A program made the translations under genes and the position numbers. From Rariglobus sp. (lineage in GTDB: Bacteria; Verrucomicrobiota; Verrucomicrobiia; Opitutales; Opitutaceae), in assembly GCA_029266495.1 (NCBI GenBank), contig JAQSWS010000030.1:56041-120040 (forward strand): 64,000 nucleotides of DNA. Reading direction: 5' to 3'. Shown one piece after another: positions 45,412-53,443 of this stretch. A model generated the notes under the pieces. The model saw nothing but the letters and a program-made list of their open reading frames with translations. It was not told where the DNA came from and did not search any database. How positions within the stretch are numbered: the stretch's first letter is position 1; each line of letters begins with the position of its first letter.

Positions 45412-47453
45412 ATGAACTACACCCACGTCAACTTCCTCTGGGATGATGCCAAAGCCGCGTCCCTCGATCCCGTCGGCCGCCTCGTTTACCGCTCCAACCT
45501 CCTCGGCAGCGACCAACGCATCACCAACACCGGCGGCGGCAACACCTCCTCCAAGCTGAAGGAAAACGACCCGCTCACCGGCGAATCCACCGAAGTCCTC
45601 TGGGTCAAAGGCTCCGGCGGCGACCTCCGCACCTCCAACCGCGACAACTTCTCCTCCCTCTACCAGGACAAGCTCATCGGCCTCCAGCAGGTCTATGCCG
45701 CCAAGGCCAACAAAGGCATCAAGTCCGAGGCCGAGGACGCGATGGTGAACATGTATTTCCACACCACGTTCAACCTCAACCCCCGCGCCTCCTCGATCGA
45801 CACGCCGCTGCACTCCTTCCTGCCCGGCAAGCACGTCGATCACATGCACCCCAACGCGATCATCGCCATCGCCGCCTCGAAGAACTGCGAAAAACTCACC
45901 CAGGAAATCTTCGGCGGCGACATGGCCTACGTCCCCTGGATGCGCCCCGGCTTCGAGCTCGGCCTCGCCATGCAGGAAGTCGCCCGCAAGCAACCCGCCG
46001 TCAAAGCCATCATGATGGGCCAGCACGGCTTCATCTCCTGGGATGACAACGAGAAGGTCTGCTACACCCGCACCCTCGACCTCATCGAAAAAGCCGCCGC
46101 CTACATCGAGGCGAAATACGCCGCCAAAGGTGGCGACGCCACGGCCTTCGGCGGACCCAAATACGCCGCCCTCGCCCCCGAAGCCCGCGCCACCGCCTTC
46201 GCCGCCATCCTCCCCTGGCTCCGCGGCCAGGTCTCCCAGCAGAAACGCTTCATCGGCACCGTGCAGGACGACGAGAAGATCCTCCGCTTCGTCAACTCCA
46301 AGGACGCCGCCCGCCTCGCCGAACTCGGCACCAGCTGCCCCGACCACTTCCTCCGCACCAAGATCAAGCCCCTCTACATCGACTGGAATCCCCAGTCCGA
46401 AGACGCCGCCACGCTCAAGAAGAAGCTCGCCGCCGGCCTCGACCAATACCGCAAGGACTACGCCGCCTACTACGCCGCCTGCAAACGCGCCAACTCGCCC
46501 GCCATCCGCGACGCCAACCCCACCGTCGTCCTCATCCCCGGCCTCGGCATGATCGCCTGGGGCAAGGACAAGTCCGAATCCCGCGTCACCGCCGAGTTCT
46601 ACAACTGCGCCGTCGAAGTCATGCGCGGCGCCGAGGCGATCGACACCTACATCTCCCTCCCGCAACAAGAAGCGTTCGACATCGAATACTGGCTCCTCGA
46701 AGAGGCGAAACTCCAGCGCATGCCCGCCGAGAAAGAACTCGCCCGCCAGTCGATCGTCGTGATCGGCGCCGGCTCCGGCATCGGCAAGGAAACCGCCCAC
46801 CGGCCGCCAACATCACCGACCGCGCCAGCATCCGCGCCATGTTGGACAAAGTCGCGCTCGCCTACGGCGGCTTCGACAGCATCTGCGTGACCGCCGGCAT
46901 CTTCGTGCCCTCCGACACGTCCGGCCACATCCCCGACGACAAGTGGGCGCTCACCTTCAACATCAACGTCACCGGCAGCTACCTCGTGGCCGACGAAGCG
47001 TTCAAGACCTGGAAAGAACAAGGCCTCCGCGGCAACTTGGTCCTCACCACCTCCGCCAACGCCGCCGTGGCGAAGAAAGGCTCGCTCGCCTACGACACGT
47101 CGAAAGCCGCCGCGAACCACCTCGTCCGCGAACTCGCGATGGAGCTCAGCCCGCTCGTCCGCGTCAACGGCGTCGCCCCCGCGACGGTTGTGCAAGGCTC
47201 CGCCATGTTCCCCCGCGACCGCGTGATCGGCTCGCTGGCGAAATACGCGATCCCTTACACGGACGACGAAGCGACCGACAGCCTCGTGACGAAGCTGGCC
47301 CAGTTCTACGCCGACCGCACATTGACCAAGAGCCCGATCACCCCGGCCGACCAAGCCGAGGCCTACTTCCTCCTCGTGACGAAGCGCCTCAGCAAAACCA
47401 CGGGCCAGATCGTGACCGTCGACGGCGGCCTGCACGAAGCGTTCTTGCGCTAA
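45412..47453 (+). pseudogene. Bifunctional rhamnulose-1-phosphate aldolase / short-chain dehydrogenase, internal deletion plus frameshift
   Basis: Aldolase and SDR start (VVIGAGSGIGKETAH) in frame 1, then ANITDRASIRAMLDKVALAYGGFDSICVTAG to the end in another frame; NAD-binding middle missing at about 46800. Confidence 0.85.
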
Positions 47454-47460
47454 GCCGTAG

Positions 47461-47510
47461 GGCCTGACTTCGCGTCAGGCCTCACGCGGGCGTCGTCCGA
47501 CGACGCCCGC
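47461..47510. repeat. Two adjacent palindromes
   Basis: ggcctgacttcgcgtcaggcc; gcgggcgtcgtc-c-gacgacgcccgc. Confidence 0.7.
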
Positions 47511-47541
47511 CGTTCACTTTCCTGCGCTGTTTACGACCCAG

Positions 47542-47604
47542 CGCAGGCCAATACAGGTTAAGGAAAAAGAGCCGCGCATCCGAAAGGGTGCGCGGCTTTT
47601 TCGT
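47542..47604 (+). repeat. Direct repeat, left copy, containing an intrinsic terminator
   Basis: cgcaggccaatacaggttaaggaaaaagagccgcgcatccgaaagggtgcgcggctttttcgt; matches 50455-50515. Confidence 0.9.
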
Positions 47605-47701
47605 GCATACCCCGATCATGGCGTAGAAGGGTAAGGTAAATAATGGATAGGGCCGTTTTTTAAACTGCTATCCTCAATCGATTGGCAGAAGATCGAATCT
47701 C

Positions 47702-50401
47702 ATGATGAGCAAATCCCTTCGGCGCTGGGGTGTGGTTTTATTCTACACATTAGTAGCGGTGATTGCGGCTCCAAGCTGCGCTCAAGCATGGCACTTGTTG
47801 GCCAACACGCTTTTGAAAACCGAGTGGCCGCTAGTTCTCCTTCTGCGCTACATGTTAGGGCTGGCGGTGCTCACCACTGTTATCGTCAAGCTTGCTCCCC
47901 GTTCGGGGCATTTTCGTCATCAGCGTTGGCTTAGATTCCCTCCGCTATCTCTGAGCGTGCCGCTTGGTGGGCTAATCGCGTGGATACTGGCAGAACTTTG
48001 CCGGGGTATGCCTTCCGGATTGGCTGACGTTTGGTATGCGCTCGCATTTGGCTGCGCAGCATTATCGGCATTAGGATTATTTTGGCTGATTTTCGAAATC
48101 TGCTTCGGTTCACGATCCTGTAGTCACAACCATAATGACGCATGTGAAAGCGACGAAGGTGTATTGGCCCTACCAAAGCCTTCTCCGGAACCGAACAAGA
48201 TTAATGTGAAGCGCGTTTTGGCTTGGGCGAGGGACGAGTCACCAATTTCACAGCAATCCGAAGATTGGCTCGATGTGAGCCATCGGGCGCGTCGTGTGGT
48301 AGATGCACTCCTCACCCGACGGATTGGCAGTCGCAGTTCACGTCGTTCTCAAACCGTAGTCATTCAAGGCTGGTTTGGGAGTGGCAAATCAAGCTTGGTG
48401 AGAATGGTAAGCGAAGAGGCTAAACGTCGCGATGCCACGCGATTGGTATTTGTTGAAATGAACTGCTGGGGGTTCGATTCCGGAACACAAGTTATCGAGC
48501 ACGTGCTGACCCGGTGCGTTGACGCGCTTCACGAACACATTGACTGCACCGCATTACGCTCTGCGCCGTCGGACTATGCACGAGCGGTGTCATCCAACTC
48601 TTCGGGATGGGCCGGCGCCCTTGTTCAAGGATTGTTTAGCGCTACAACGCCCGCCGAGCAGATAGAACGTTTCGCCCCACTATTGAATGCGGTGAATCTA
48701 CAGTTGGTGGCAGTGATAGAGGATACGGATCGCAATACTGAGGGTCTAGCGAGTGGCCAAATTGAGGCTATGCTTCACCACTTTCGTAGTGTGGATCGTA
48801 TGTCGTTCATTTTGACAGCGGGAGAAAAGAGCCTGATCGAATTTCCTAAAATCGCCGAACACATCGAGTTTTTGCCGCCTTTGCGTAAGGAAATGTCGCT
48901 CCCGTTGATCGATGCATTGAGAACACATTTTCTAGCTGCGACCGATTGGGTGGACCCCGTGCGCAACCTTGATCCAGTGGGAAACGTAGAGAGGAATCGG
49001 CCGGCCGCACTTTGGGCCGAGGCCGAATCAACCACCTACGGATGGCGTATATTTGGTATCGTTCATCCGGCATGGGTAGACGGGATCGCAATGCTCATTA
49101 CCACGCCTCGCGCGCTGAAAGCGATTATCCGATCCTATACCGTGGCTTGGGACGTTCTAAAAGGTGAGGTGGACATTGATGAATTACTAATGGTCGTAAC
49201 ACTACGACATGCTGCACCTGGAGTTTTTTCATTCGTGGGGCGGCATCTGAATCAGTTGCGATCGCTAGCGCGGAGCGCAACGCGTGACGAAGCGCTTCAT
49301 GCACGTGTGGTCGCTGATCTGAAAGATGAATGGCGCGCGATATGTGAGAAAGGGGAGTTTCCTGCTGATGCAGCCTTGGGCCTTGTGGCGGAACTCCTTC
49401 CTGCATTCGCCACTGCAATGGGACATAAGTATTTTACTCACGGCAACCGGGTTCAAAGCCTGCGTAATGAAGAAGGCCCGGATTATTGGGAACGGCTGAC
49501 AGCGGAGCGACTCGATGGGAAAAGCATAATGGACCAATCTGTGATGGCTGCGTTAGTCGCCTCCGGAAAATCAAGTAAGGATGCGAATGCTTTGGGAGAT
49601 TGGATGTGTAGTGAGCCGAAGGTCGCGGAGCTCGTCGCGTTTTTCACGAAAAAATCCTCTCTATTCAAGGGATGTGAACTACAGATTCTTTCAGGATTCC
49701 TAGGTGTTATGCGTGCTCGTCACGGCAACCAAGCGACGCGCGAGTTACCGGCATTCCAGTCTCTTGGATGGGGGCGAACATCTCGTTTTCAGGTCGAGGC
49801 TGAAAAGCTTCATCTTTGGTTAGAAGCCGAGATTCGTGCGTGTTTTCCAAAACACTTAAGGCTGGCATGCGATCTTTATGGAGATCACGCGCACGAGTCT
49901 AGTGCTGCTCCGCGCTTTCGGTCTCTCTTGCTAGAACTCACTCAATTGTTTTTTGAGAAATGCTCAGGGAGCATGCTTGCGGATGCGTTAGATCCTGTTT
50001 CCCCATGGACGCTCAACAACTTGTTTTTTGCATACGGAGCGAATGAATCGGAACAAATGCTCACTCGAGGAGAAGACTGGAAATTTCTGATGCCTGTATT
50101 GCTCGATGGCATGCGCACTAATCCGAATGTGCTAGTGCCAACCGCTGTGTTCACCTTTTTCCAAATAGGCGCGGGAGTGAGCATGGGTCAGCTCGATTTC
50201 CGAGACGATGTGGTGCAGGACTTTTTGGGTGAAAAAAAGGGAGAGTTCTATGCTATAATTGCCGGCTTCAATCCGCACGTCGTTCAATTTGAGTCGCGTT
50301 ATCAAGTGGGGCTTGAGCGCGCTGTCGTATGTGCAGAGGCACGTGTTCGCACTGCACGCACCAAGTCGATCGACGAGAAACCGGATCGGGCCATTGGTTA
50401 A
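47702..50401 (+). CDS. KAP-like P-loop NTPase with N-terminal TM helices
   Basis: About 4 N-terminal TM helices, Walker A GWFGSGKSSLV, Walker B-like LVAVIEDTDRN. Confidence 0.75.
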   Translation: MMSKSLRRWGVVLFYTLVAVIAAPSCAQAWHLLANTLLKTEWPLVLLLRYMLGLAVLTTVIVKLAPRSGHFRHQRWLRFPPLSLSVPLGGLIAWILAELCRGMPSGLADVWYALAFGCAALSALGLFWLIFEICFGSRSCSHNHNDACESDEGVLALPKPSPEPNKINVKRVLAWARDESPISQQSEDWLDVSHRARRVVDALLTRRIGSRSSRRSQTVVIQGWFGSGKSSLVRMVSEEAKRRDATRLVFVEMNCWGFDSGTQVIEHVLTRCVDALHEHIDCTALRSAPSDYARAVSSNSSGWAGALVQGLFSATTPAEQIERFAPLLNAVNLQLVAVIEDTDRNTEGLASGQIEAMLHHFRSVDRMSFILTAGEKSLIEFPKIAEHIEFLPPLRKEMSLPLIDALRTHFLAATDWVDPVRNLDPVGNVERNRPAALWAEAESTTYGWRIFGIVHPAWVDGIAMLITTPRALKAIIRSYTVAWDVLKGEVDIDELLMVVTLRHAAPGVFSFVGRHLNQLRSLARSATRDEALHARVVADLKDEWRAICEKGEFPADAALGLVAELLPAFATAMGHKYFTHGNRVQSLRNEEGPDYWERLTAERLDGKSIMDQSVMAALVASGKSSKDANALGDWMCSEPKVAELVAFFTKKSSLFKGCELQILSGFLGVMRARHGNQATRELPAFQSLGWGRTSRFQVEAEKLHLWLEAEIRACFPKHLRLACDLYGDHAHESSAAPRFRSLLLELTQLFFEKCSGSMLADALDPVSPWTLNNLFFAYGANESEQMLTRGEDWKFLMPVLLDGMRTNPNVLVPTAVFTFFQIGAGVSMGQLDFRDDVVQDFLGEKKGEFYAIIAGFNPHVVQFESRYQVGLERAVVCAEARVRTARTKSIDEKPDRAIG

Positions 50402-50454
50402 TCAGAAAATTGTTAGGTGCTAGGACGGTGCTCGCTCGATTCTGAGCGACCTAT

Positions 50455-50515
50455 CGCAGGCCAATACAGGTTAAGGAAAAAGCCGCGCATCCGAAAGGGT
50501 GCGCGGCTTTTTCGT
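50455..50515 (+). repeat. Direct repeat, right copy, containing an intrinsic terminator
   Basis: Same 61-bp sequence as 47542-47604 with a 2-nt indel. Confidence 0.9.
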
Positions 50516-50567: not shown

Positions 50568-51260
50568 TCACTTAGATCGGCTCTTTCGCAAGCCATGTGG
50601 AAGCTTTGAAACCTCACTAACCAGACAGATTTCCCGGTAGTATGGGCGTGGCATAGATCCCGTCATGCGTTGGCCAAAAAATTTCTTGGTAAATGGGAAT
50701 TTTTTCGGCTTCTCAAATCTACAACACACTTGAGGCCACTCCCAGTAATCATCGGTCTCCCACCGAATGCAGACAATGTCTCGATAGTTAATCCAGTAAA
50801 TGTATTCAACTAAGACCGCGTCTTCGTCGTTGTCGTCTGAAAAATACCAAGAGTCTCCGACTTTCTTAATGTATTTGGCGAAGTTGCAGCCGGCGGTAAA
50901 TTCAAGGTGTTCCTTTTGAATTGAGGTTAAAACCACGAGTGAATGAGGCGCCTCCTCCTTGCTGTGATTTTCCTGGGTATGAGGCAGTCTGCGATCAGCA
51001 TCGCGGACTAGATACTCGCCGTATGAACCCCAATTTGGTTCCCATTCCGCCCGCATTTCCATCTCGGCTTTCAGCTTAGCTGCGTGAGCGAACTCTTCAG
51101 CAATCTCTCGGCGTGTGCATTTTTTGTTTAGCTGTTTGATGACCAGCCAAATCCCGCACCACAGTGCGGGAAGAAGGAAAAGGATGAGGGCTAGGACGCC
51201 TTGGTTTTCGTTCGTCCAGCGAAAAAGCTGATCAAGATTAACTGCGGCGAGATCGCGCAC
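50568..51260 (-). CDS. Hypothetical single-TM protein
   Basis: VLALILFLLPALWCGIWLVI TM, charged linker, Trp/Tyr-rich C-terminal domain; no family recognised. Confidence 0.65.
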   Translation of the reverse strand: MRDLAAVNLDQLFRWTNENQGVLALILFLLPALWCGIWLVIKQLNKKCTRREIAEEFAHAAKLKAEMEMRAEWEPNWGSYGEYLVRDADRRLPHTQENHSKEEAPHSLVVLTSIQKEHLEFTAGCNFAKYIKKVGDSWYFSDDNDEDAVLVEYIYWINYRDIVCIRWETDDYWEWPQVCCRFEKPKKFPFTKKFFGQRMTGSMPRPYYREICLVSEVSKLPHGLRKSRSK

Positions 51261-51687: not shown

Positions 51688-52191
51688 ATGTCATGCCTCG
51701 GCGTCCATTTGGCCCTCACAGATGAAGAAGTTGATAAGCTTGAGTCGCTCCCCAGCGATGCCGAGCGGCTTGAATACATTCAAGAGGATCTTGAGGAACG
51801 ATATTTCTCTGAACACAGAGAATTCCTGGCCCAGTCCGACAAGGCTTGGGACGCCATTCACCGAGCTCTTGGCAACGGCGACTTGAGCTACACCTCGGGC
51901 CCCGATCCTCTCCGTTTCACCATTCTCGGTGGCACTCCGCTCTACTATGGAGGTGACTACATCATCTCACTGAAATTACCCCTCGCAGTGGGTGCGGTCG
52001 CCCAAGCCCTCCAATCGCTCACTCACGAGGATTTTCGGAAATGCTACGATGCAATGGACGCTGGCAAGTATGGCTTCCCTAAAAGCGATGAAGACTTCGA
52101 ATATACATGGCGCTGGCTCACTGAAATCCGTGATTTTTATCAGCGCGCCGCAGAAGCCGAACGCTGCGTCATCTTCACCGCCGACCAGTAA
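51688..52191 (+). CDS. DUF1877 (YfbM-like) family protein
   Basis: MSCLGVHLALTDEEVDKL, DGxWxWL-type C-terminal pattern (CYDAMDAGKYGFPKSDEDFEYTWRWL). Confidence 0.8.
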   Translation: MSCLGVHLALTDEEVDKLESLPSDAERLEYIQEDLEERYFSEHREFLAQSDKAWDAIHRALGNGDLSYTSGPDPLRFTILGGTPLYYGGDYIISLKLPLAVGAVAQALQSLTHEDFRKCYDAMDAGKYGFPKSDEDFEYTWRWLTEIRDFYQRAAEAERCVIFTADQ

Positions 52192-52240
52192 CAGGGAATC
52201 GTGCCCTCGAGCCGATGTAAGTGGTCGAGCCGGTATTGTG

Positions 52241-52280
52241 GGTCGAGCCAATGGGGTCGGGCCGTTACTTGCTACTTTTG
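52241..52280 (+). repeat. Dispersed intergenic repeat, copy A (with partial copies at 52207 and 52223)
   Basis: ggtcgagccaatggggtcgggccgttacttgctacttttg. Confidence 0.75.
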
Positions 52281-52632
52281 ACGAGCCAGCGATGTCAGAG
52301 GCAGGCGCGACGAGGCAACGGAGTCGGTCCGAACGTTTCGGATCCGTTCGTTGTCTGGTGTGTGGGAAAGAAGCCAGACCATCGCTGGCGCTCTACAAGT
52401 GAAACGAGAAAGGTCGCTGAGCCGGCGTTGACCTCGACGGCACGGGCCGCTGGCCCGCCTCCGCCTCGGTCGCCTTGGCCGAGCACGGTTTCTCCGCCAC
52501 AGCCTCGGTTTGAATTAATCAACGAACCTCAATGACAGGCATTCGGGTTTGACCCTTTCGGATCGGGGGGCGGTCGTCTCTATCTCGACAACCAACCCTT
52601 GGCCGCCCGCATCGACGGCCGCTTTCCCGACC

Positions 52633-53390: not shown

Positions 53391-53443
53391 TCGAGCCGAT
53401 GGGGCCGTTACTTGCTACTTTTGGCGGACTTGCCCGGTGGCAG
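53391..53443 (+). repeat. Dispersed intergenic repeat, copy B
   Basis: tcgagccgatggggccgttacttgctacttttggcggacttgcccggtggcag. Confidence 0.75.

Follow-up and report, generated by a model that had tools for sequence, protein, structure and literature searches.

A gene for an 899-aa KAP-like P-loop NTPase lies between two terminator copies in the window, by which we mean the whole 64,000-nucleotide stretch of Opitutaceae DNA analysed here. On balance, we favour the reading that this gene is cargo acquired behind a native terminator, with the lineage's own terminator having been copied. The two copies, designated LEFT and RIGHT, and the features around them are arranged as follows.

45412..47453, + strand: bifunctional rhamnulose aldolase/short-chain dehydrogenase gene (Pfam Aldolase_II and adh_short)
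47521..47547, + strand: hairpin CCTGCGCTG/CAGCGCAGG, immediately 5' of the LEFT terminator (fold and alignment)
47534..47604, + strand: LEFT repeat copy, 71 nt, which looks like the native terminator of the aldolase/dehydrogenase transcript (fold, alignments and flank comparison)
47702..50401, + strand: gene for the KAP P-loop NTPase, 899 aa, PifA-like (Pfam, PADLOC, hhalign and hydropathy)
50447..50515, + strand: RIGHT repeat copy, 69 nt, putative second terminator between convergent genes (folds on both strands)
50568..51260, - strand: 230-aa ORF with one predicted TM helix, convergent with the KAP gene and within the AT-rich tract
51688..52191, + strand: DUF1877 gene (Pfam E 2.1e-31), placed in the AT-rich tract by its GC

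The two terminator copies

The original prediction had described two repeats around a single 899-aa gene, differing from each other by a 2-nt indel and followed leftwards by a weaker similarity, and all of these elements were indeed present. LEFT (47534-47604) and RIGHT (50447-50515) share two exact blocks, of 26 nt (CGCAGGCCAATACAGGTTAAGGAAAA) and 35 nt (AGCCGCGC...TTTTTCGT), which flank the indel; the likeness reaches further left through CGACC-A, and the ORF at 47702-50401 lies inside. Apart from the 2-nt indel, two substitutions distinguish the copies. Since no 27-mers other than those of LEFT and RIGHT recur anywhere in the 64-kb window, chance is excluded as the source of the likeness. 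Recurrence of the same terminator at many places in the genome had been named as one observation that would count against the prediction, and a whole-genome search yielded just two full-length copies, with all other matches being stem-like fragments. This copy number rules out a dispersed repeat or MITE. An integron gene cassette was likewise ruled out, as neither attC core motif (RYYYAAC or GTTRRRY) occurs in LEFT or RIGHT on either strand, and so was a known RNA family, as no Rfam family reached its gathering score (best 28.8 bits versus 55, a generic terminator-like match). A single exact match to the leader of the repeat came from genome_contigs, where it lies on a contig of an Opitutaceae MAG; the viral contigs gave none.

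On folding, a strong intrinsic-terminator hairpin is formed at the end of each copy. RIGHT begins 46 nt past the KAP stop codon and folds strongly on both strands, suggesting that it can serve as a bidirectional terminator between convergent genes. LEFT would thus end the aldolase/dehydrogenase transcript and RIGHT the KAP transcript, and since RIGHT folds on both strands, it probably also ends the convergent 230-aa gene on the other strand. The hairpin CCTGCGCTG/CAGCGCAGG upstream of LEFT is kept in the relative G117 and partly in other relatives, as judged by alignment, and its 5' arm is absent at RIGHT. An additional 11-bp hairpin lies 5' of the LEFT hairpins, at 47486-47510, with several hairpins stacked past the dehydrogenase stop codon.

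The KAP protein, its homologs and the AT-rich tract

The 899-aa protein matched Pfam KAP_NTPase with 35.9 bits against a curated cut-off of 20 (E 6.4e-9), and it carries a Walker A motif (GWFGSGKSS) and an acidic Walker B motif with the following Arg (VIEDTDR), of which G226, G228, K229, D341 and R344 are invariant in a three-row alignment. Four hydropathy peaks within residues 9-131 predict about four N-terminal TM helices. The best PADLOC model was PifA (E 7.4e-16), and the three-row family profile aligned with F-plasmid PifA over 308 columns in hhalign (probability 94, E 1.3e-7), in an alignment that extends past the P-loop and includes the TPR(x)K segment. Pairwise BLASTP between the two proteins was marginal (E 0.018), so the likeness to PifA is visible only with profiles. 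A PDB sequence search returned nothing significant, and the AlphaFold model built from the three-row alignment had a mean pLDDT of 46.6 and was set aside rather than taken into a fold search. In the literature, PifA is described as acting by abortive infection against few phages (PMC8594841). With PifA, which the E. coli F plasmid encodes and which acts in phage T7 exclusion, the KAP protein shares both the KAP P-loop domain and a region further downstream. By hydropathy, PifA lacks any TM peak, whereas the KAP protein and its homologs have N-terminal ones. From these comparisons, the gene product is probably a defence protein of the PifA kind, anchored in the membrane and driven by ATP.

Homologs of this protein are rare, being found in 8 of 390 genomes of the phylum sample (E <= 1e-3) and 7 of 385 of the class sample (E <= 1e-8), with the source genome included in both counts. 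In five homologs the homology runs well past the P-loop, and three of these five adjoin restriction, AbiEii-like or candidate defence genes, namely a C5 methylase, an Eco29kI-type endonuclease and Vsr in G630, an AbiEii-like gene in G351, and a PADLOC HEC-02 pair in G281. None of the five is flanked by direct repeats comparable to LEFT and RIGHT, with 13-14-nt shared words present in two. The homolog of G355 (L094 900-3627) consists of two overlapping ORFs, as if frameshifted. As for close relatives, the plasmids gave one partial match of 148 aa, and the phages and genome_contigs gave none. Around the window's own KAP gene no defence gene was recognised, and a defence role for the protein is plausible on the sequence comparisons. 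The family thus appears as a rare and patchy group of membrane-anchored, PifA-like proteins in the phylum, whose members are candidates for phage exclusion.

We also examined base composition and codon usage. The KAP gene has a GC content of 52% and a GC3 of 0.51, against a mean GC3 of 0.73 for the other ORFs used, and by these low values it is marked as foreign, in keeping with the original prediction of an AT-richer unit. The AT-rich tract itself is real, but it does not stop at the repeat: GC stays at ~0.48-0.56 past RIGHT to ~52.2 kb, so that foreign DNA continues for ~1.7 kb beyond RIGHT. Since the low GC runs through the 230-aa ORF and the DUF1877 gene, the tract is larger than the repeat-bounded unit. 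The 230-aa ORF matched no Pfam or NCBIfam family. No recombinase match was obtained among the tested ORFs of the tract, and no phage-type integrase (PF00589) on the contig that holds the window (C142); integrase-family genes are located on other contigs of the source genome.

The locus in related genomes

The upstream gene, a single 730-aa ORF in G041 and G164, is represented here by two ORFs (45412-46890 and 46839-47453). The window lacks ~148 bp at 46802-46803 that are present in all of the relatives compared, and the gene is thereby broken in two; the loss may reflect either a genuine mutation or a fault in the assembly.

Among the 13 genomes of the genus sample, which includes the source genome, the element or its terminator hairpin was found as a single copy in four of the 12 others. 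G117 and G041 each have one copy behind the aldolase/dehydrogenase gene, at 95% and 85% identity to LEFT, respectively, and G201 has the terminator only, after the same gene. The 79% copy of G200 lies on a contig piece where this gene was not seen. G150 and G134 showed no copy of it; in both, the aldolase/dehydrogenase gene is directly followed by an ORF that we read as rhamnulokinase from its translation. The KAP gene was absent beside the single copies of G117 and G041; in G200 and G201 other genes come directly past the terminator, as judged from the DNA there without a KAP protein search, and elsewhere in the family sample the KAP gene was absent, apart from distant matches. The cargo past the terminator thus differs by relative, with ParDE-type modules in G117 and G201, a ParE-like toxin in G200, and blaI and blaR1-like genes in G041. 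The genes to the right of the AT-rich tract match elsewhere in most relatives, with a DUF1508 match ~10 kb downstream of the terminator in G041. Because of this differing cargo and these displaced right-flank matches, the position behind the terminator is a variable slot.

An empty site in relatives had been expected from the original prediction. Single copies without the KAP gene do occur, but the right flanks differ, and the exact junction (the left flank, one repeat and the sequence from 50516) was found in no relative searched. G097, in which the match resumes at window position 52417, was rejected as an empty site, because that stretch is a dispersed repeat with many matches. The segments 52240-52280, 53402-53426 and 52358-52420 of the window match many places in the source and related genomes, and are apparently dispersed repeat families.

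Comparison of the flanks suggests which copy is the native one. The upstream flank of LEFT, including the hairpin, matches G117 and G041 to a degree that none of 5000 shuffles equalled, and its downstream flank is weakly like those of G117 (p 0.024) and G201 (p 0.015), among 15 pairs compared. The flanks of RIGHT resemble nothing tested. LEFT therefore looks like the native terminator. In addition, the loop CCGAAAGGG and the tail TTTTTCGT are common to RIGHT and LEFT and lacking in G117 and G041, so that RIGHT goes back to the source lineage's own terminator.

Origin of the arrangement

Most likely, three genes of the AT-rich tract, those for the KAP, 230-aa and DUF1877 proteins, were acquired horizontally as cargo. 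They would have settled directly behind the terminator that closes the aldolase/dehydrogenase transcript, in the slot whose gene content varies from relative to relative. RIGHT would have been copied from the lineage's terminator and would now end the KAP transcript. As its source, a recombination or copying event that accompanied or followed the insertion is favoured over a dedicated recombinase, and the copy may have been retained because it insulates the KAP gene. Duplication of the terminator is supported by the relatives, in which one copy follows the aldolase/dehydrogenase gene. What counts against this explanation is the weakness of the LEFT downstream-flank similarity (p 0.015-0.024 among 15 pairs), together with the lack of a recognised defence gene beside the KAP gene and the profile-only likeness to PifA. 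The earlier proposal of an insertion at, or duplication of, the rhamnulose aldolase terminator therefore stands as far as the single terminators and the foreign GC and GC3 are concerned, and falls short at the precise empty site. The further idea of a repeat-bounded mobile unit was not borne out, in view of the contig free of integrase, the foreign DNA beyond RIGHT and the distant homologs without comparable repeats.

Indeed, we consider it unlikely that LEFT and RIGHT are the attL and attR of a small element whose integrase targets the terminator, the recombinase having since disappeared or working in trans from elsewhere in the genome. One foreign gene bounded by direct repeats that restore the terminator, together with the integrase-family genes on other contigs, would suit such an element, but the contig itself carries no integrase, the foreign tract runs past RIGHT, such repeats do not accompany the homologous genes elsewhere, and the exact empty junction was missing from the relatives searched. 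Furthermore, LEFT is seemingly native on both sides, and its apparent retention of native sequence 3' counts against a simple attL/attR pair; a duplicated terminator would thus fit better than a hybrid pair, with the downstream-flank evidence being thin. Import of the KAP gene and terminator as one block from a close relative, in which the gene would already have stood ahead of a terminator copy, by recombination at the common sequence, is also improbable. RIGHT is of the source lineage's own type and 69 bp of homology could anchor the recombination, but none of the relatives searched showed such an arrangement, and the KAP gene is absent from the rest of the family sample except for distant matches. 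There is a slim chance that the genus terminator serves as an attachment site for small, single-gene accessory or defence elements mobilised in trans, and that the KAP unit is one such element, still excisable by way of its terminator repeats. An assembly artefact, with contigs misjoined at a short repeat, is highly improbable: the genome comprises 172 contigs and a repeat of such length can mislead short-read assembly, but the two substitutions and the 2-nt indel imply that both copies exist, and LEFT has its expected upstream flank.

The duplicated terminator we favour would make this locus a clear, if modest and well-defined, case of cargo gained right behind a conserved terminator that was itself duplicated. 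In principle, the KAP gene could be removed by recombination between LEFT and RIGHT, with a single terminator remaining; were the repeats to mediate such excision, a defence unit of one gene could be cleanly lost. The sequences searched gave no sign of movement of the unit, which is in line with ordinary gene acquisition and a duplicated terminator. Our literature search on elements integrating at terminators provided nothing usable.

As in integrative elements with attL/attR repeats, a foreign gene is surrounded by direct repeats overlapping the 3' end of a host transcription unit; unlike in such elements, the contig carries no phage-type integrase, foreign DNA lies outside the repeats, and no exact empty site was found. 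The locus likewise resembles an accessory-gene hot spot behind a conserved operon, since the relatives carry differing accessory genes behind the aldolase/dehydrogenase gene and its terminator, but a second terminator copy bounding one cargo gene sets the source genome apart as the only such case among the 13 searched.
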